Assembly: GCA_021802655.1 (NCBI GenBank)
Contig: JAJZRP010000002.1
Coordinates: 1 to 56,524 of the forward strand
Direction of reading: 5' to 3'
Source of the DNA: Pseudomonadota bacterium
GTDB taxonomy: Bacteria; Pseudomonadota; Gammaproteobacteria; Burkholderiales; JABEVD01
DNA length: 56,524 nt
Numbering within the stretch: position 1 is the first letter of the stretch; each line of letters opens with the position of its first letter. Of the stretch, positions 3,314-18,259 are shown one piece after another. The notes beneath the pieces are model-generated. The model saw only the letters and a program-made list of their open reading frames with translations. It was not told where the DNA came from and did no database searches. A program made the translations under genes and the position numbers.

Positions 3314-3465
3314 AACTCTCGGAAATTCCACCGGGGTCGGATTTCAGCTCAAATGTGAGCGAGATTACTTTATCAGGCGCGCTTAATCAAATGATTTTTG
3401 AGCCTGTTGCTTTCGTGTCATTATTCCTAAAATGGAATGTAGCCAACCCGAGAACAGGATATCGC

Positions 3466-5823
3466 ATGAAAGCCACGCTTACCCAGGAAGAAGCGGACAA
3501 AATGAACGCCTACTGGCGCGCCGCGAATTATCTCTCCGTGGGCCAGATTTATCTCTACGACAACCCTCTCCTTAAAATTCCGCTCACGATAGATCATGTC
3601 AAACCGAGGCTTCTCGGCCATTGGGGAACGACGCCGGGGCTCAACTTCATTTACGTGCACATGAACCGGGCGATCAAAAAATACGATCTCGACATGATCT
3701 ATCTCGCAGGCCCGGGGCATGGCGGACCTGCACTGGTGGCCAACACCTATCTCGAAGGCAGCTACAGCGAGTTCTACCCGAACATTTCCCGTGACGAGGA
3801 AGGCATGAAGAAGCTTTTCAGGCAATTCTCCTTCCCCGGCGGCATCCCCAGCCATGCAGCGCCGGAAACCCCGGGATCGATCCACGAAGGGGGGGAGCTC
3901 GGCTATGCGATCTCCCATGCCTACGGCGCCGTCTTCGACAATCCCGACCTCATCGCCTGTTGCGTGGTGGGCGACGGAGAGGCCGAAACCGGCCCCATGG
4001 CCGCGTCCTGGCATTCGAACAAATTCCTCAACCCGAAAACGGACGGTGCGGTTCTGCCGATACTGCACCTCAACGGCTACAAGATCGCCAACCCCACCCT
4101 CCTGTCGCGCATTTCCCATGACGAGCTGGACAACCTGTTCAAGGGCTATGGTTACCGCCCCCATTTCGTCGAAGGGTCCGACCCCGAAGAAATGCACCGC
4201 AAAATGGCCGCAACGGTGGACGGCATCGTCTCCGAAATCAGGGCGATCCAGAAGCAGGCAAGGCAGGACGGTGTCGAATCGAGGCCCCTTTGGCCCATGA
4301 TCATATTGCGCTCCCCCAAGGGCTGGACAGGCCCCAGGGAGGTGGACGGGCTGAAGACGGAAGGCTTCTGGAGGTCCCACCAGGTTCCCTTTTCCGAAAT
4401 GAAGGAAAAACCGGAGCATGTGAAGCTGCTGGAATCCTGGATGAAGTCCTACAGGCCGGAAGAACTTTTCGACGAGACGGGAAGACTCGTCCCGGAACTC
4501 GCAGCACTCGCCCCCAAGGGCGAGAAGCGCATGGGCGCCAACCCGAAGGCGAACGGCGGGATGCTGCTCAAGGGGCTCAGGATGCCTGATTTCAGGGATT
4601 ATCGCGTCACGGTGGAAAAGCCCGGCGGGAGCATCGCCGAAGCCACCCGGGTGATGGGTTATCTGCTGCGCGACGTGATGAAGAAAAACGGCGACAACTT
4701 CCGCCTGTTCGGCCCCGACGAAACGGCATCGAACAGGCTGGGCGCGGTGCTGGATGCGAGCCCCAGAAGCTGGATGCTGGAAATTTACGACTACGACGAC
4801 CATCTCGCGAAAAACGGCCGGGTGATGGAAATCCTCTCAGAGCATACCTGCCAGGGCTGGCTGGAAGGCTACCTGCTGACCGGAAGGCATGGATTTTTCT
4901 CCTGCTACGAGGCCTTCATCCATCTCGTCGACTCCATGTTCAACCAGCACGCCAAATGGCTGAAAACGACCAGCCACGAAATCCCCTGGCGGCGCCCCAT
5001 CGCTTCGCTCAACTATCTGCTCACCTCCCATGTCTGGCGCCAGGATCACAACGGCTTCTCGCATCAGGATCCCGGGTTCATCGACCATGTGGTGAACAAG
5101 AAGTCCGACGTGATCCGGGTGTATCTCCCCCCGGATGCGAACACCCTGCTCTCGGTGACCGATCACTGCCTTAAAAGCCGCAATTACGTCAACGTCATCG
5201 TGGCCGGGAAGCAGCCCGCCCCGCAGTGGCTGGACATGGATGCGGCCATCAAGCATGTCTCTGCGGGCATCGGCATATGGGAATGGGCCTCGAACGACAG
5301 GGATGCCGAACCGGATCTGGTGATGGCCTGCTGCGGGGACGTTCCGACGCTCGAAACCCTGGCCGCTGTGGATATTTTGAGGCAATCCGCCCCTGAACTC
5401 AGGATCCGGGTCGTCAACGTGGTCGACCTCATGACCCTGCAGCCCAGGGAAGAACATCCCCACGGTTTGCCCGAAAAGGATTTTCTTTCCCTTTTCACGC
5501 CGGACAAGCCGGTCATTTTCGCCTATCACGGTTATCCCTGGCTCATTCATCGCCTCACCTACAGGCGCAAAAACAGCGCCAACATCCATGCCAGGGGCTA
5601 CAAGGAGGAGGGAACCACCACCACGCCCTTCGACATGACCGTGCTCAACGACCTGGACCGCTTCCATCTCGTCATGGATGCCATGGACAGGGTTCCCGCC
5701 CTGCACGAAAAAGCACCCCACATCAGGCAGAAAATGCGCGACAGGCTGGTCGAGCACAAAGAGTACATCGAGAAACACGGGGAAGACATGCCGGAAATCG
5801 CCGAGTGGACATGGCCCTATTGA
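3466..5823 (+). CDS. xfp: Xylulose-5-phosphate/fructose-6-phosphate phosphoketolase
   Basis: ORF 3355..5823; start refined to [30 protein letters not shown]; characteristic [47 protein letters not shown]. Confidence 0.95.
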
Positions 5824-6866
5824 ACATTCTCACGGTCAACAGCGGCTCGTCCTCCCTGAAAGCCAGCCTGTTCACAAAGGATGGCCGCAGGAATTTCAGG
5901 TACGAGCATCTAGACGGCCAGCAGGTGGCTTACGATGCGCTCATGCGGGAAATCGGGAGGGCGCCGGACATGATCGGGCATCGCATCGTGCACGGCGGCG
6001 ATATCGCCGAACCTGCAAGGCTGGTGGATGACAAGGAGAGAGCCAGGCTCGAGAGCCTGGTCCCGCTCGCCCCGCTCCACCTTCCGGGAAACCTGCTGGG
6101 GCTCGATCTTTGCTCGAATTTCGGCGTACCTCAAATAGCCTGCTTCGATACCGCCTTCCATGCGGGAATGCCTGAATTATCCAGGCGCCTTCCGATACCC
6201 GAGAAGTTCGGGCTGCGCAGATACGGCTTCCACGGCCTGAATTACGCCCATGTCGCCAAGAAGCTTCCGGAAATTCTCGGGGAAGCGGCAAAGGGCAGGA
6301 TCGTTGCAGCCCATCTGGGAAGCGGGGCGAGCCTTTGTTTGATGCAAAATCTGAAATCGATCGACACCACCATGGGTTTTTCGCCGGCAGGTGGCATCGT
6401 CATGGGCACGAGAAGCGGGGATCTCGATCCCGGGATCATGCTCGCCCTTTCCAATCATCTGGATCGAAAAGCGCTTGCGGATACCGTTTATCACGAAATG
6501 GGCCTCCTCGCCCTCTCGAACGGCGAAAGCCCGGAAATGATCGATCTTCTCGCAAGCAAAAGCCATCATGCCCGCTTCGCAGTAAACTACTTCTGCAGCT
6601 CGGTGCGCTCGGCAATCGGCGCTTTCGCCGCAAAAGCCGGAGGAATCGATGCACTCGTCTTTTCCGGCGGCATAGGGGAGCATTCCCCCGAGATTCGCAG
6701 GAAAATAACCGCCCCCCTGGAATTCCTGGGGTTCTCGCTGGATGAACATGCCAATCTTGCAGATCACCAGAACATTTCAGGGGCCGATTCCAGGCCCGTC
6801 CTTGTCATTCCGGCGGACGAGGAAATCATGATCCGCGACCTTTGCCTCGATCTCATCTCGACCTGA
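5811..6866 (+). CDS. ackA: Acetate kinase
   Basis: [18 protein letters not shown]-terminus, [47 protein letters not shown]; overlaps the xfp stop. Confidence 0.94.
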
Positions 6867-9644: not shown

Positions 9645-12137
9645 TTAGGCTGCCCTGGACTGGATAAAACGGACCAACTTCTCCGGGGGGAGCGGCGTAC
9701 TCACATAATAACCCTGAGTTTCATCGCATTGATGCTCCTTCAGAAAGCTGATTTGCTCTGCGGTTTCGACCCCTTCGGCAATTACCCTGAACCTCAGGTT
9801 GTGTCCCATGCTGATGATAGTCGTGGTAATCAAGGCATCGTTTTCGTTGGTCGCAACATCCCGAATGAAAGACTGGTCGATTTTCAGCTTGTCTATCGGG
9901 AAGCGCTTCAGGTAGCTCAGACTCGAGTATCCCGTTCCAAAATCGTCGATCGAAAGCAGCACACCCGCTTTCTTCAATGCGTTGAGCGTTGCGATAGTGG
10001 ATTCGGCATTTTTCATGATGATTCCCTCGGTCAATTCGAGTTCGAGGTAGCGAGGTTCCAGCCCGGTTTCATGAAGAATCCCGACAATCAATTCCACGAG
10101 ATCCTTCTGATGGAACTGCAGCGCGGAAAGATTGACTGCGACCGGGATTTTGACGATCCCATCCTCCTGCCATTTCCTGTTCTGGGCGCAAGCCGTACGC
10201 AACACCCATTCGCCAAGCTGGCCGATGAGCCCACTTTCTTCCGCGATCGAAACGAACCTGGAAGGCGGAACGAAACCTCTTTCGGGATGAAGCCAGCGGG
10301 CCAACGCCTCGACACCGACAATAGCGCCTGTCGCATTGTCGATCTGCGGCTGATAATAGATCTGCAATTCCCCGTTCACCATCGCCCGCCTGAAATCGGC
10401 CTCTAGGGAAAGCAAGTCAAGCGCCTCTGCATTCATGTCGGGAGTGAAGAACTGGAAATTATTGCGGCCATGCTCCTTGGCATGATACATCGCCGCATCG
10501 GCATTCTGGATCAAAGCCTCCGGAGTGTCCGCATCGGCAGGGTAAATGCTGATGCCAATGCTGAAAGAGACAACCAGATTGCGGCCCTCGATATAATGCG
10601 GATCGGACATCGCAGCGAGGATCTTTTGCGCAATGGCAGCCACATCTTCCCTTTTTTCAATACCGGGCAGCAGAACCATGAATTCGTCGCCACCCTGGCG
10701 GCAAATGCTGTCCATTTCCCTGATGCACAATTTCAATCTGTCGGCCACGGACTGCAGCAGCGAGTCGCCTGCGGCATGGCCAAGCGAATCGTTGATGCTT
10801 TTGAACCTGTCGAGATCGAGGAAAAGCAGGGCGACCTTTCCTCCTCCCCGCCTGGAAGCTGCAAGCGCCTGTCCCAGCCTGTCTCCGAACAACACCCGGT
10901 TCGGCAGGCTCGTCAGCGGATCGTAATAAGCCAGCAAATGGATGCGCTGCTCCACTTCCTTGCGCTTCGTGATGTCCATGAAGATGGCTACATGGCGCAT
11001 GATTTCGTTCCGGCTATTCTTCACAGTACTGATCGAAAGCCATTCCGGGTAGATTTCACCGGACTTGCGTCGGTTCCAGATTTCTCCCTGCCAGTATCCG
11101 ATTTCCTTGATGGATTGCCACATGGCCTGGTAGAACTCTTTCCCCTGCCGTCCGGAATTCAGAATACGCGGATTTTTCCCTATGACTTCCGCTTCGGAAT
11201 ATCCTGTGATCCTGACAAAGGCCCTATTGACTGAAACAATGACATTGTTCGCATCCGAAATGATAATGGCTTCTTCGGTGTTCTTGATGACCTCGGCAAA
11301 AAGCACCAGATCCTTGGTCGCCCGCTCCAGATTTTCAACGAAAAGATTGAACGTTTCCGCCATTTCGTCGATGTTCTTGTATTTCCCCTCGATTTCAGCG
11401 CGCAAGGACAAATCGCCTTCCTGGCGGATTTTCAGCATCGCGGCCTGGAGCTTCTGACTGGGCTGCTCGATATCCCGGACGATGACGATTCGAGTGAACC
11501 AGGCTATGAGAATAGACAGTCCAATCTGGAAAGCGATATTTCCCGTCCAGAGCAGCCTTTTGATTTGCTGGATTCTCGATTCTTCCCGGGAAAGATCGAT
11601 GATGATACTGGCCGCCCCGTTGACGCTCCCGACCTTGACGTGATGGCACATCAGGCAATTCGTGCCGCGGAAATTTTCGCTGACGATATACGGGATGACA
11701 GCACGGAGCAGGGGTTTCCCGTTTGCCGCCCGGGTTCTCAAAAAAACCGGCTTCCCGCTTTCGATGGCTTCCCTGTCAAGATAATCTACAGCCTGTTCAG
11801 AAGACAATCCCGGACCGAACTGATCGGAAACCTGTTTGGCCCTGACAATACGCAATTCCCTGACACCCGGAGAATCGCTCATCTTTTTCAGCAAAAGCAG
11901 ACGGTTCGCAGGATCGCCGATCTTTCCCGTCTCCATCAGCATGTTCATTCCGTTGATCAACCCGTCGGCAATGTCGGATGCCTGGGAATGCACCTCGTTC
12001 ACTCCCTGGGCTTCGAAGCGCTGAACAATCCATTGCTGCGAAACCAGGAAGATCAGGATGAGCGCTCCCTGAATCAGGATGTGCAGTTTCCATTGCACAC
12101 CCAGCCTGTCCCACCATGCCAATGGATTCATGGGCAA
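9645..12137 (-). CDS. Heme-type (CxxCH) sensor - PAS - GGDEF - EAL protein
   Basis: 830 aa; TM, periplasmic-type domain with NCLMCHHVKVGSVNGAASIIIDL, second TM/HAMP-like linker, PAS (ITGYSEAEVIGKNPRILNSG), REMD + RQGGDEF, GVEALARW, DDFGTGYSS. Confidence 0.9.
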   Translation of the reverse strand: MPMNPLAWWDRLGVQWKLHILIQGALILIFLVSQQWIVQRFEAQGVNEVHSQASDIADGLINGMNMLMETGKIGDPANRLLLLKKMSDSPGVRELRIVRAKQVSDQFGPGLSSEQAVDYLDREAIESGKPVFLRTRAANGKPLLRAVIPYIVSENFRGTNCLMCHHVKVGSVNGAASIIIDLSREESRIQQIKRLLWTGNIAFQIGLSILIAWFTRIVIVRDIEQPSQKLQAAMLKIRQEGDLSLRAEIEGKYKNIDEMAETFNLFVENLERATKDLVLFAEVIKNTEEAIIISDANNVIVSVNRAFVRITGYSEAEVIGKNPRILNSGRQGKEFYQAMWQSIKEIGYWQGEIWNRRKSGEIYPEWLSISTVKNSRNEIMRHVAIFMDITKRKEVEQRIHLLAYYDPLTSLPNRVLFGDRLGQALAASRRGGGKVALLFLDLDRFKSINDSLGHAAGDSLLQSVADRLKLCIREMDSICRQGGDEFMVLLPGIEKREDVAAIAQKILAAMSDPHYIEGRNLVVSFSIGISIYPADADTPEALIQNADAAMYHAKEHGRNNFQFFTPDMNAEALDLLSLEADFRRAMVNGELQIYYQPQIDNATGAIVGVEALARWLHPERGFVPPSRFVSIAEESGLIGQLGEWVLRTACAQNRKWQEDGIVKIPVAVNLSALQFHQKDLVELIVGILHETGLEPRYLELELTEGIIMKNAESTIATLNALKKAGVLLSIDDFGTGYSSLSYLKRFPIDKLKIDQSFIRDVATNENDALITTTIISMGHNLRFRVIAEGVETAEQISFLKEHQCDETQGYYVSTPLPPEKLVRFIQSRAA

Positions 12138-12173: not shown

Positions 12174-14243
12174 TCACAGCGAATGAACCTCGAAGTGCTG
12201 CACCATTGTTTTCAATTCGATCGACGTTCTGGTGAGCTCCTCGGAAGCCTTTTTCGCATCTTCCGCAGCAAGGGCATTGTTGTCCACGAGATCGGATATT
12301 TGCGCGAGGCTCCTTGCGACATCTTCGCTCGCCAGGGACTGCTCCTTCGATGCGTCTGCAATGTCCTGCGCCCTCCGGGTGACTTCCCGGCTCGTTTCCA
12401 TGATTTTTTGCAGGCTCGCTTCATTCTCCCTGGTATAGACAATGCCTTTTTCGACCTCCATTACAGCCTGGTTCATCGAAACGACTGCAGCCTCGGTCAC
12501 CGAATGGATGTTTCCGACCATATCGGTGATATCGGTCGTGCTCGCGGTCGTCCTCTCGGCCAGCTTCCTCACTTCGTCCGCCACCACGGCGAATCCCCTT
12601 CCCTGCTCTCCCGCCCGGGCAGCCTCGATCGCAGCATTCAGGGCAAGGAGATTGGTTTGCTCGGCAATTTCCTTGATCACTTTGGTGATGCTGCCTATTT
12701 TCTGGATCACATCCTTGAGTTCGTCGATGGTTTTGCTGGAGGTTTGCACAGCCTCGACGACACGGGACGTTGAAGCCACACTTTCCGCCATTCTCCTGTT
12801 GCTCTCATCGATGATGACCTGAGAGTTGGCAGCCGAATTGGCGGAATCGGTTGCCGCATGGGCCACTTCAGTTACCGACTGGCTGAATTCTTCCATGGTG
12901 CTTGCGATCTCCTGCACGTGGTCCTGCTGCTCCTTCGAATGTTCAGCAACGCGCACGATCTGGGTATTGAGACTGTTGCTCCGGTCCACGATGATGGAAG
13001 CCGACAGTTCCATTTCGTCGAGCATCACCTGGACGTAGGCCTGCATGGTCTGGAGCTCGCAAAGCAGTTTCCCCATTTCGTCGCGGCCTGAAATATCGAT
13101 CGGCGGATCGAGATCGCCTTCCATGAGCGCTTCGAATTGTCTCATCGCAGAATTCAGCGGGCGCTTGACAAAAACATTGATGCACCGCCCGATAAAAAAG
13201 AGCAGGAATATCTGGAGCACGATCTGCCCGCCAAGCAGCTTGAGCTGGATGCTGTGCAAACGGTCGAAATTCGGCTTCAGATCGATCAGAATGTCGGATG
13301 CGCCGTTCACGCTGCCGACCTGGACCTGGTGGCAATTCAAACAGTCCGTGCCGTGGAAATTGTGGCTTACGATGTAGGGCACGACCGCCCGATATACCGG
13401 ATTGCCTCCGTTATCCCGGATCAGCTTGAAATAGCTCGTTTTCGTCTCGATCGCGTTGCGCTCGATATCGTCCCTGACATGCTCTTCGGGTAGCCCCGGG
13501 CCGAACTGATTTACCACCTGTTGGGCGCGAATGAGACGCAGCGACTTGATGTGGCCGCTGGATGCGATCTTCTTGAGCAACAGTTTCCTGTTCGCCACAT
13601 CGCTTATTGTTCCCGTTTCCATCAGCATGTTCGCCCCGTCGATCAGCGAGTTGGCGACATCGACTGCATGCTCCCGAGCCGATTGCATGGTCTCGCTTTT
13701 GAAACTGTGCGCCAGCCAAAGCTGGCCAGCCGTCAAAACCACGAGGAGCGTACCCTGGATCAGGATCTGGAGCTTGGTCTGCAGCGAAAAATTCCTGAAC
13801 TTGAAGCGGTCCCATTTGGAGCCTATGGGCGCTTTCGTTTCGTTCAGATGTCTGTAAAGCGCCTCGGCCTCCTCGATCTGCCGCCTCGTGGGCGCACGCC
13901 TGACGGACATGTATCCCACTATGCTTCCCTTGCTGAGCACGGGCACGACAAGCGCATTGACCCAGTAATGGTCGCCGTTCTTGCAGCGGTTCTTGACGAT
14001 GCCGCGCCAGGGCAAACCGGCTTTCAGCGTATCCCACAGCCATTTGAAAGCCTGCGGCGGCATGTCGGGATGACGCACGACATTGTGATTCTTCCCGATC
14101 AATTCCTCCCTCGAAAACCCGCTCATTTCCACGAAACCGTCGTTCACGTAAGTGGTAATACCCTTGAGATCGGTCTTGGAAACGATGCGCGTGCCTTTGG
14201 GAAAAGGCTTCTCGATCTGGGTGACGGGAAGATTGATTTTCAT
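12174..14243 (-). CDS. Aer-type PAS chemoreceptor with CxxCH periplasmic sensor (methyl-accepting chemotaxis protein)
   Basis: 689 aa; Aer-like PAS ([32 protein letters not shown]), sensor domain with [30 protein letters not shown] hairpin [38 protein letters not shown]. Confidence 0.93.
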
Positions 14244-14295: not shown

Positions 14296-16476
14296 TCAAT
14301 CCGATGACTTCAATCTCGGCAATGGCATGTCGAGATGGAATCCCTGGGCAAAATCGATCCCCATTGCTTTCAATGCCTCGAGTATTTCCTGCGATTCGAC
14401 GAATTCGGCCACGGTCAGGATGCCGAGGTCCTGGCAAAGGTGGCTGAGATTTCTCACCAGTGCATAGTCGATTTTGGAATTGAGGATGTTCCTGACGAAG
14501 GCACCGTCGATTTTGACGTAATCGAAATGCAGTTCCCGGAGATAATGGAAGGAATTGTAACCGCTGCCGAAATCGTCCAGGGCGAAGGAGAACCCTTTCT
14601 CCCTCAAGTTCGAGAGGAACTTGCGCATGTGGGTCATGTCGCCGATGGCATCCCGCTCCAGAATTTCGAATACGATCGCACTCGGAGGAATGTCGAAATC
14701 CAGGCAGAGCTGCTCGGCAAAGCCGAGTATTCCCCTTCCCTGGATTTCCTGGGCCGATAGGTTGATGAAAAGCCGGGGCGGCTCGCTACCTTCATCCATG
14801 CAATGCCTCATCGCTGCCAGGGCTTTGCGCAGGATGACCCGGTCGAGCTCCCTGCCCAACCCGTATTTCTCTATCGTTTCGATGAACATTCCTGCAGACT
14901 GGGTTTCCCCGTTCGGCTCGACGAGCCTTGCCAGCGTCTCATGAGCCCAGATTTTTCCGCTCCTGCAGTCGAAAATCGGCTGGTAGTAGGGAATGATCCT
15001 TTCGTCTTTCAACGCATCCCTGAGCTTTTCGGCATGATCCCGGTTGGTCCGTTCGGTCCGGATGCGTTCGGTCGACTCCAGCATGGCGATCCCGTCCTTG
15101 CCCAGTTCCTTGGCACGGTAAAGTCCGATATCCACCCCCGTCATCAAATCTGAAACGTTTTGTGCATCACCTGGAAAGGTAACCAGTCCAATCGACGTCG
15201 TGATATGGAACGTCTTTCCATCAGAGCTTTCAAAAGAAATTTCGCGCAACTCCGTCCTCAATTTTTCGGCAACCACCATCGCGCCCTCCCTTCCGGTTTC
15301 GGTCAGGATGATGGCGAATTCGTCTCCGCCGATGCGGGTTGCCAGATCCCCTTTGCGCATGGTGGCATGCATGGTCTCGGCTATCTGCCTGAGAACCGAA
15401 TCGCCGCAGGGATGACCGTAGGTGTCGTTGACGTCCTTGAAATCGTCCAGATCCAGCATGAGAACGGTGAATTCATGGTTGTGCCGCTCCGAGCGGCCCA
15501 CTTCATAGTCAAGCATCTCGTTGAAATAGCGGCGGTTGTGCAGTCCGGTCAGGGGATCGTGGGTGGAATAGTATTCGAGTTCGGACAGGGTCCGGCTCAG
15601 GGCCTTGCTCGACCCCACCACCATCACCATCACAGACAGGATGGAACGGATCACGCTTTCCTCCTGCACAGTCAGTTCCTGAGCGGAGCCGTAGGCTACT
15701 CCGAGCAGGCCGGCCAGATTCACCACTTCCAGGGAAGGAACCGAAACCGTGATCAGGTTGATTTCGTTGATATCATCGCAACAATCATTTTCCACGACCT
15801 GGAATTCCTCGATATCGAGCGGAGCATCGGCTGGCAACCCTAAGCTGGCAATCATATCCCTGGCCAATCTCATCCGCGCTGCCGTTCTGATTTCTTCCGA
15901 GTAATTGTTGAGGTAGTAGATGTAAAGCGATAGGTTGTTTTTTTCCGCAAATGAAATAAAGAAAAAATTAAAAGGGAAGATGGAATGAAAACTGGAGAGA
16001 ATTTCCTGAATAAATGCCTTCCACTGAGTCACCTTTTCGTGGGAAAGGATGATGCTTTCCAGGACATTGCTCTGGCGTTCGAGAAGATCCTTCTCGATCA
16101 GGGTGCCGGAAAGCTCGGAAGAGATCTGGTCGAATTCGAGCATGACCTGGAGCAGGTTCTTTTCGTTCTGCTGCCACTGCCTTTTGCGCTCTTCCAGCAG
16201 CAGAGCCAGGGTTTCATCGAGCCGCATGAAGGGCGTGATGGCTTGCTCGATGCCCGCCATGAATTGCGCCTTCTTGTCCGGATCGATATCGAACCCGGCC
16301 ATCTGGCGGAAAGAAGCCTGCAGCCCCTGGATTGCCTCGGCATGGATGTTGCGAACCAGTTCGCTGACGTTCGCAGCGAACAGGTGAGTCCGGGTCTGGC
16401 TTTCGAACAGGGAAGCGAAACGCCCCAGAACATGCTGGCGCATTTCCTCCAGGTTGAGGTTCGAAATCGCGTTCAT
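14296..16476 (-). CDS. GGDEF-EAL protein with uncharacterised N-terminal helical region
   Basis: 726 aa; RKGD I-site, RIGGDEFAIIL; EAL-type domain with AHETLARL, DDFGSGYNS. Confidence 0.9.
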   Translation of the reverse strand: MNAISNLNLEEMRQHVLGRFASLFESQTRTHLFAANVSELVRNIHAEAIQGLQASFRQMAGFDIDPDKKAQFMAGIEQAITPFMRLDETLALLLEERKRQWQQNEKNLLQVMLEFDQISSELSGTLIEKDLLERQSNVLESIILSHEKVTQWKAFIQEILSSFHSIFPFNFFFISFAEKNNLSLYIYYLNNYSEEIRTAARMRLARDMIASLGLPADAPLDIEEFQVVENDCCDDINEINLITVSVPSLEVVNLAGLLGVAYGSAQELTVQEESVIRSILSVMVMVVGSSKALSRTLSELEYYSTHDPLTGLHNRRYFNEMLDYEVGRSERHNHEFTVLMLDLDDFKDVNDTYGHPCGDSVLRQIAETMHATMRKGDLATRIGGDEFAIILTETGREGAMVVAEKLRTELREISFESSDGKTFHITTSIGLVTFPGDAQNVSDLMTGVDIGLYRAKELGKDGIAMLESTERIRTERTNRDHAEKLRDALKDERIIPYYQPIFDCRSGKIWAHETLARLVEPNGETQSAGMFIETIEKYGLGRELDRVILRKALAAMRHCMDEGSEPPRLFINLSAQEIQGRGILGFAEQLCLDFDIPPSAIVFEILERDAIGDMTHMRKFLSNLREKGFSFALDDFGSGYNSFHYLRELHFDYVKIDGAFVRNILNSKIDYALVRNLSHLCQDLGILTVAEFVESQEILEALKAMGIDFAQGFHLDMPLPRLKSSD

Positions 16477-16480
16477 GTGT

Positions 16481-17257
16481 TCACCCCTTCCTGAAGGTGC
16501 CGCTTCCCGTCATGAGGTCAACGCCGCATTCCAGCTCCCTGAACCAGGCGAGGAAGTCCTTCACGGCCTGGCCGCGGTAAACCGGGCCGTGCTGGGGAGC
16601 GAGGATAGCCACGTCCAGTTCCGAAACCGCATCGACCCAGATCCGGGCCGCCCGGTTGGCAACCATGTAGCGCCGGTGGAAGCCCTCGATATAGGGCAGA
16701 TGGGCAGCGAAATCGTCGACGAAGGCCTCGTCCTCGTCGGTGGGCATCATGGCGGCACCGATGTCTCCCGTGAACAGCACTTTCGAGGCCGGATCGTAGA
16801 CGTTGATCTGGCCTTCGGAATGGAGGAAGTGGGCCGGAACGAGCTGCAGGTCGAAGCCCGGCGATATGCTGCAGGCCATGCCCTCGTCCGGAACGCCATG
16901 GAAGCGGTCCATGGCCTTGATGCCGTAGTGAGGCAAGAAGCGCATCCAGATTCTGGAAACATAGACAGGGGCCTGGGTGAGTTCCAGCCATGTCGAGATA
17001 CCGCCGACAATGTCGGGATCCTGATGCGAGAGCATGATCGCTTTCAACTTGTCCGGGCCGGTATGGCGCAGCATTTCGGCAAGCACGCGGGGCATTACGC
17101 CGAAGCCGCCCGGATCGAGGAGGACCGCCGAGTCATCGTGAACGATCAGGTACTGGTTGGAACGTATGCCGTCTTCCTCGCCGGGTTCGCTCTCGTTGAG
17201 CAACATGAAGCGGTGATTCCCGGACTTGAACAGCGTGATATTGCGCATACTTGCCAT
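16481..17257 (-). CDS. ODP-like oxygen-binding diiron protein (metallo-beta-lactamase fold, FDP-like, no flavodoxin domain)
   Basis: SHQDPDIVGG, HFLHSEGQINVYDPASKVLFTGD, LAPQHGPVY match the FDP/ODP metal-binding pattern; likely start MASMRNITLF within ORF 16481..17302. Confidence 0.8.
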   Translation of the reverse strand: MASMRNITLFKSGNHRFMLLNESEPGEEDGIRSNQYLIVHDDSAVLLDPGGFGVMPRVLAEMLRHTGPDKLKAIMLSHQDPDIVGGISTWLELTQAPVYVSRIWMRFLPHYGIKAMDRFHGVPDEGMACSISPGFDLQLVPAHFLHSEGQINVYDPASKVLFTGDIGAAMMPTDEDEAFVDDFAAHLPYIEGFHRRYMVANRAARIWVDAVSELDVAILAPQHGPVYRGQAVKDFLAWFRELECGVDLMTGSGTFRKG

Positions 17258-17359
17258 CTCTCCCGAAAAAACCATTCTCTTATAATGGGTACAAAGTACC
17301 ATTTATTGCTGGCGATAGCAAAGCGCTATAGCTAAAAGTCATCGCGGTTTCGAATCGCA

Positions 17360-17485: not shown

Positions 17486-18259
17486 ATGTCAGAACACCAC
17501 GCCATTTCGCCAGCGCTGCAGCCAACTTCAGTCCCGGAAGACAGCGAACACTACGTTCACTCGAAAACCGAGATCGTCTCGATTCTCAAGGATATCCAGG
17601 AAAGCAGAGTGCCTGCCGCCCTTTTCTATGCCGGGAACCAGTCCATGATGACCGCTGTCCTGAAGGTAAGCGCTGTCAAGGATCTGGTCTACCTTGACTG
17701 CAACATCAACAAGGAGCTGAACGAGCAGGTCGAGGCGAGCAGAAAGCTCACCTTCGTTTCCAACCTGAGAAGCGTTAAAGTCCAGTTCACTATTCCGCGC
17801 ATCGAAATAGCCCTGTTGAACGATGAGCCAGCTTTCGTGCTCAAGCTGCCGAAGGCCATCGTGCGCCTGCAGAGAAGGGAATTCTACCGGATCCCCACTT
17901 CGACTCTGGATCCCGTGATCTGCACCATTCCGCTGCCTGACGGCAGCAGCATCAAGGCCGCCGTCGCAGACATCAGCGCAGGCGGCATAGGCCTCGTTGG
18001 AGCGCCAGAAGAAATGCGCCTGGAACAGATGAGGTCTTACGAAAATTGCCAACTCGCCCTGCCGGGCTCTGAAACAGTTCTGGTCAATCTGCAGGTCAGG
18101 GAGATCTTCAACATTACATTGAAAAACAATGTCGAGAAAAAGCGGGCCGGAATGCAGTTTCTCAAGTTGTCGAATCACACGCAGTCCACCATCCAGCGCT
18201 ATATCATGAAACTGGAAATGGAAAGAAGGATTAAAGAAAAAGGAAGCAAATGGGATTGA
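17486..18259 (+). CDS. ycgR: YcgR-like flagellar brake protein (PilZ domain)
   Basis: N-terminal YcgR-like domain; RREFYRIPTS ... DISAGGIGLVG PilZ c-di-GMP-binding motif. Confidence 0.85.
   Translation: MSEHHAISPALQPTSVPEDSEHYVHSKTEIVSILKDIQESRVPAALFYAGNQSMMTAVLKVSAVKDLVYLDCNINKELNEQVEASRKLTFVSNLRSVKVQFTIPRIEIALLNDEPAFVLKLPKAIVRLQRREFYRIPTSTLDPVICTIPLPDGSSIKAAVADISAGGIGLVGAPEEMRLEQMRSYENCQLALPGSETVLVNLQVREIFNITLKNNVEKKRAGMQFLKLSNHTQSTIQRYIMKLEMERRIKEKGSKWD

Follow-up and report, generated by a model that had tools for sequence, protein, structure and literature searches.

It is likely that two adjacent genes in the analyzed DNA encode a split sensor-effector system, in which an oxygen-binding diiron protein (ODP) serves as the detached O2 and/or Fe(II) sensor that controls a GGDEF-EAL enzyme of c-di-GMP metabolism (GE). 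With slightly better than even confidence, we further regard the pair as an undescribed and widely conserved split O2/iron c-di-GMP switch of Beta- and Gammaproteobacteria, in which a docking hairpin has replaced a membrane CXXCH sensor and sensing has passed to the ODP. The window referred to below is the whole stretch of DNA that was analyzed (56,524 nucleotides).

Identity and Metal Site of the ODP

The ODP is encoded by an open reading frame on the minus strand at 16481-17257. The ATG at 17248 (MRN...) is the likely start and was preferred over 17257, because most of the close homologues also start there and GGGAG was read from the sequence about 11 nt ahead of it. The features of the gene are as follows:

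16481..17248, minus strand: ODP (oxygen-binding diiron protein), 255 aa, assigned by PF19583, identity to 6qrq and model similarity to 6qwo
17168..17197, minus strand: NESEPGEEDG loop (residues 18-27), candidate partner contact, conserved in c-di-GMP-linked ODPs only
17012..17026, minus strand: HxDxD metal motif H75-D77-D79, with Ile80 in place of the flavodiiron His ligand
16820..16822, minus strand: predicted metal ligand His143 (HFLHS)
16763..16765, minus strand: predicted metal ligand Asp162 (FTGD)
16589..16594, minus strand: Gln219-His220 (PQHG)

An inverted repeat, GGTACAAAGTACC, was noticed at window positions 17288-17300, upstream of the ODP gene and some 40 bp from its start. It is a possible operator, and it sits in the best-kept stretch of a comparison of two sequences only, the window and locus L037.

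The Pfam model PF19583 (ODP) spanned the whole domain of the protein with E 3.1e-72 and 243 bits, compared to a cut-off of 27.2 that is loose, as it was exceeded in 9 of 14 control genomes; identity to the solved ODPs and the fold therefore weigh more for the assignment. The protein was 46% identical to the solved ODP of Thermotoga maritima (6qrq) and 42% to that of Treponema denticola, compared with approximately 16-18% for flavodiiron proteins. The AlphaFold model, which was obtained from ODPs of this and other genomes, had a mean pLDDT of 91, and its top PDB match was the T. maritima ODP 6qwo (TM 0.92, rmsd 1.4 Å), with the flavodiiron proteins far behind. A flavodiiron identity was rejected since both the HxExDH motif and the flavodoxin domain are missing; the preliminary description of the DNA had read the lack of a flavodoxin domain from the letters, and only the ODP and generic Lactamase_B models were found by Pfam. 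That description had named glyoxalase- or hydrolase-type MBL proteins as the closest homologues that would speak against its ODP-like assignment. Glyoxalase-type MBLs were far weaker matches, the best named hydrolase reached E 6e-4 compared with 5e-76 for ODP, and the motif is HxDxDI instead of HxHxDH, so a glyoxalase II or hydrolase identity was also rejected. As judged from sequence and model together, the window protein is a genuine ODP, and by homology it would be a diiron O2/Fe(II) sensor.

To compare the metal site, 151 ODP sequences were aligned (94 linked to GE and 57 others; numbering from MRN = 1). The four ligand patterns first noticed, SHQDPDI, HFLHSEGQ, FTGD, and PQHGPV, are all present in the reading frame, and H75, D77, D79, H143, D162, and H220 were invariant in all 151 sequences. 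Position 80, where the flavodiiron proteins have their His ligand, was I or V in 150 of 151. The HxDxD motif had been called a variant, which holds relative to the flavodiiron proteins but not relative to ODPs; in the alignment it is family-wide and reads as the signature of the ODP family, and the notion of an unusual variant was dropped. Gln219 was kept in 150 of 151 sequences (one gap). In T. maritima ODP the third His of motif 2 is replaced by a Gln at motif 5 (PMC7785958), and the Gln of PQHG in the window fits this replacement. The NESEPGEEDG loop separated the sequences: N18, E19, S20, G23, E25, and G27 were 100% conserved in the 94 GE-linked ODPs and different or missing in most of the 57 others. 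The loop was poorly ordered in the model (pLDDT below 50 at residues 22-25).

The Partner Enzyme and Its Linkage to the ODP

An Aer receptor had been described as the neighbor of the ODP. A 726-aa GGDEF-EAL gene that this description did not mention intervenes, beginning 4 bp past the ODP stop, and the chemoreceptor (MCP) lies two genes from the ODP, behind GE:

14296..16476, minus strand: GE, cytoplasmic GGDEF-EAL c-di-GMP enzyme, 726 aa, partner of the ODP (GGDEF E 8e-48, EAL E 4e-68)
15979..16476, minus strand: GE residues 1-166, antiparallel helical hairpin predicted by AlphaFold (2-60 and 66-166) and continued by a coiled coil, where the ODP presumably docks
15592..15978, minus strand: GE residues 167-295, GAF-like domain (Foldseek)
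15097..15564, minus strand: GGDEF domain, in which GGDEF and the RxGD inhibitory site are intact (invariant in all 91 sequences compared)
14329..15030, minus strand: EAL domain, all catalytic residues present (E, N, E, D, D, K, E, Q)
12174..14243, minus strand: MCP with Aer-type PAS, periplasmic CLNCH (c-type haem motif), HAMP, and MCP domain, an occasional associate

The EAL residues were kept in 91 of 91 complete GE sequences, with one gap at the first E. Together with the intact GGDEF and inhibitory sites, this residue pattern suggests that GE is a bifunctional GGDEF-EAL enzyme. For the N-terminal 290-295 or so residues, neither a credible Pfam family nor a consistent PDB match was found, and the AlphaFold model of the N-terminal part was of moderate confidence (mean pLDDT 74.7). 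The best Foldseek matches of residues 167-295 were mostly GAF domains but weak, none of them below E 0.001, and there was no GAF match in Pfam; this domain could bind a ligand of its own. Conservation within GE is lowest in the hairpin, and among the helical parts it is highest in the coiled coil at residues 121-160. The hairpin is for this reason only presumed to be the docking site, and residues 121-160 are a candidate ODP contact on grounds of conservation.

To survey the pairing, a named genome collection was scanned with the GE N-terminus; 122 stretches were confirmed and the best 80 were kept. The ODP gene was directly upstream on the same strand in 77 of these 80, and in the remaining 3 the contig ends inside GE, so that all 77 testable loci were paired. 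The spacing, measured between alignment ends in the 77 loci, ranged from a 1 bp overlap to a 137 bp gap. Among the best 80 of the 122, the loci came from Zoogloea, Rhodocyclaceae, Curvibacter, Polaromonas, Rhodoferax, Methylotenera, Sideroxydans and other Gallionellaceae, Ferrovum, and Methylobacter and other Methylococcaceae. The reverse search with the ODP, through relatives and the phylum, found GE beside ODPs that were at least 61% identical and not beside those at or below 47%, and no GE partner occurred among the 57 ODPs outside the GE-linked clade. In a tree of 92 ODP sequences, the 35 GE-linked rows fell together on one side of a branch with a support of 100, from a quick search with SH-aLRT support only. 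Moreover, the genome carries the pair a second time, on contig C31, where an MCP of the type found in the window accompanies it.

In another class of the phylum, one GE keeps GGDEF without EAL and one distant ODP is fused to PAS-GAF-GGDEF. These two arrangements suggest that the shared output is the synthesis of c-di-GMP. Pairing and fusion of genes are evidence of a common function, though not of any particular mechanism. The divergence of the ODP correlated with that of the GE hairpin at 0.62 and with that of GGDEF at 0.68, and no domain stood out; coevolution by distance correlation was thus discarded as support for a hairpin contact, being uninformative with the hairpin no better than GGDEF.

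Relatives of GE with a different N-terminus were also found. A search with the coiled-coil/GAF part alone recovered the same core in 14 further genomes, and 18 proteins with this GAF-GGDEF-EAL core have two N-terminal membrane segments, with CXXCH between the segments in 17 of the 18. The hairpin part is absent from these membrane-anchored relatives. No ODP was found near the 18 within flanks of about 1.5 kb, nor in the wider stretch examined for one of them. Conversely, CXXCH occurred in none of the 91 ODP-linked GE. Hydrophobic stretches were seen in 31 of these 91 and lie near residues 150-174, where the GAF-like part starts, the exceptions in position being two GE whose start is cut by a contig end. 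From the anchored proteins with CXXCH and no ODP, and the ODP-linked ones without CXXCH, we infer that the hairpin substitutes for the built-in sensor, with the ODP sensing in trans.

Proposed Mechanism and Alternative Explanations

ODP is known to bind iron and oxygen, and its interaction with the receptor depends on conformation (PMC6978683). In the proposed mechanism, the ODP would be a stand-alone diiron sensor, a separate subunit that acts on the cytoplasmic GE encoded downstream. The hairpin and coiled coil of GE would form its docking site, at the position that a membrane-anchored periplasmic sensor with CXXCH occupies in related enzymes. A change in the state of the iron site (apo, diferrous, or O2-bound) would alter the contact with the hairpin and coiled coil, the altered contact would affect the pairing of the GGDEF domains, and the balance between c-di-GMP synthesis and breakdown would shift, and with it that between swimming and attachment. 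We infer the physical contact between ODP and GE, its effect on activity, and the ligand. The bacteria probably switch between swimming and settling through the ODP as oxygen or iron changes.

The neighboring genes offer another output. The preliminary description had looked to them for chemotaxis partners, and the ODP might sense O2 or iron for chemotaxis as in Treponema, through the Aer-type MCP, the Cache-CheW protein, and CheA, with GE as a bystander. The MCP and Cache-CheW genes do share a co-directional run with the ODP, genes for two CheA-type kinases and for flagellins are present in the genome, and more distant ODPs adjoin short sensorless MCPs. However, the MCP in the window has inputs of its own, since it carries the Aer-type PAS (matching Aer 8dik with E 1.2e-39) and CLNCH ahead of the HAMP and MCP domains found by Pfam, unlike the sensorless receptor of ODP (PMC7666581), and the window showed no sensorless MCP in the vicinity of the pair. 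The Aer-type MCP was the only other neighbor to recur clearly, in 20 of the best 80 of 122 loci; it is missing near most of the pairs, and GE is present at all testable ones. The Cache-CheW gene was not among the recurring neighbors of these 80 loci. The sparse recurrence of the MCP and the lack of recurrence of Cache-CheW weakened the case for a chemotaxis partner as the main link, and this explanation is unlikely. An indirect effect of ODP-GE on swimming is plausible, given the CheA-type kinases and flagellins.

In the same region, a second GGDEF-EAL protein (9645-12137) has a periplasmic segment related to that of the MCP (48% identical, CLMCH vs. CLNCH). The CXXCH segments of both proteins resemble sCache_heme, but without a Pfam match. 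Farther away, a phosphoketolase gene (XFP) stands beside an acetate kinase gene at window positions 3355-6866, a probable phosphoketolase-acetate route.

Both outputs might also be combined, with the ODP setting c-di-GMP through GE and c-di-GMP acting in turn on motility, through a YcgR-like PilZ protein, and on chemotaxis. A gene for such a protein (PilZN-PilZ by Pfam, YcgR-like, 17486-18259) is divergent from the ODP operon, and one congeneric relative retains it. Outside the genus it is not conserved as a neighbor, so this explanation, to which we give little credence, amounts to a local extension of the sensor-effector model. The ODP might instead be an enzyme, either an O2 or NO reductase or a metallo-hydrolase, with the GAF-like domain of GE sensing its product. 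This would agree with the MBL/flavodiiron fold of the ODP and with the presence of the GAF-like domain in GE, but is very improbable given the lack of a flavodoxin domain for electron delivery, a ligand set of the ODP type instead of the flavodiiron or glyoxalase types, and chemotaxis sensor ODPs as the nearest solved relatives.

If the pair is such a conserved split switch, the role of ODPs would reach beyond chemotaxis to the direct control of a second messenger. One ODP clade has an obligate c-di-GMP gene partner in cultured Zoogloea, Curvibacter, Methylobacter, and Novimethylophilus, and the pair also occurs in relatives of microaerophilic iron oxidizers from O2/Fe(II) interfaces. It would offer a clear two-protein system for studying how the signal of a diiron sensor reaches a separate enzyme and whether that signal is O2 or iron.

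Comparison With Known Systems

To our knowledge, ODP has been characterized in two proteins only, both studied as chemotaxis sensors, and its O2 chemistry likewise comes from two. Several other genomic settings of ODPs were seen in our searches. In another class of the phylum (L179-L184 and L209-L211), ODPs lie between two small proteins, another possible output; in L180, one of the flanking proteins is Roadblock/LC7 (E 1.7e-11) and the other is weakly LAMTOR5-like. In L201 and L202 the ODP is directly upstream of a small protein, which in L201 contains a haemerythrin domain and matches HisKA weakly, placing two diiron-type sensors side by side. A TPR protein follows the ODP in L050, L055, and L058, and in L058 a small PilZ protein precedes it, which is another setting related to c-di-GMP.

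Operons of ODPs with various signal transduction genes, and fusions to signaling domains, were summarized previously (PMC7319448, citing Muok et al. 2019); the part of that summary available to us names neither c-di-GMP enzymes nor the N-terminal region of GE. ODPs beside or fused to signaling genes are thus already known in general. Among open-licence papers, we found nothing specific on a link between ODP and c-di-GMP and no description of the ODP-GE pair.

The closest known systems are the ODP of Treponema denticola (TDE2498), with its receptor TDE2496, and that of T. maritima (6qrq, 6qwo, 6qnm, 6r9n), which share family, fold, and metal-site residues with the window protein. As in the window, the Treponema sensor is a separate protein encoded beside a signaling protein. 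The partner there is a cytoplasmic chemoreceptor that lacks a sensor domain, whereas in the window the immediate partner is a GGDEF-EAL enzyme and the MCP has a PAS; the Treponema type of coupling to a sensorless cytoplasmic MCP was not found. In addition, the window ODP differs from both by the NESEPGEEDG loop, which is conserved only in the c-di-GMP-linked clade.

The sCache_heme (DUF3365/Tll0287) sensors are fused to MCP, kinase, or GGDEF/EAL outputs (PMC12889525). The membrane-anchored relatives of GE resemble them in that a periplasmic segment with CXXCH takes the place of the hairpin, while ODP-linked GE has neither CXXCH nor an N-terminal membrane anchor. In Vibrio cholerae Bhr-DGC and Ferrovum Bhr-HD-GYP (PMC9388753), non-haem diiron sensing is likewise tied to the synthesis or breakdown of c-di-GMP. 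Those sensors have the haemerythrin fold and form one fused chain with their output, whereas the window encodes an MBL-fold ODP separate from its GGDEF-EAL enzyme.
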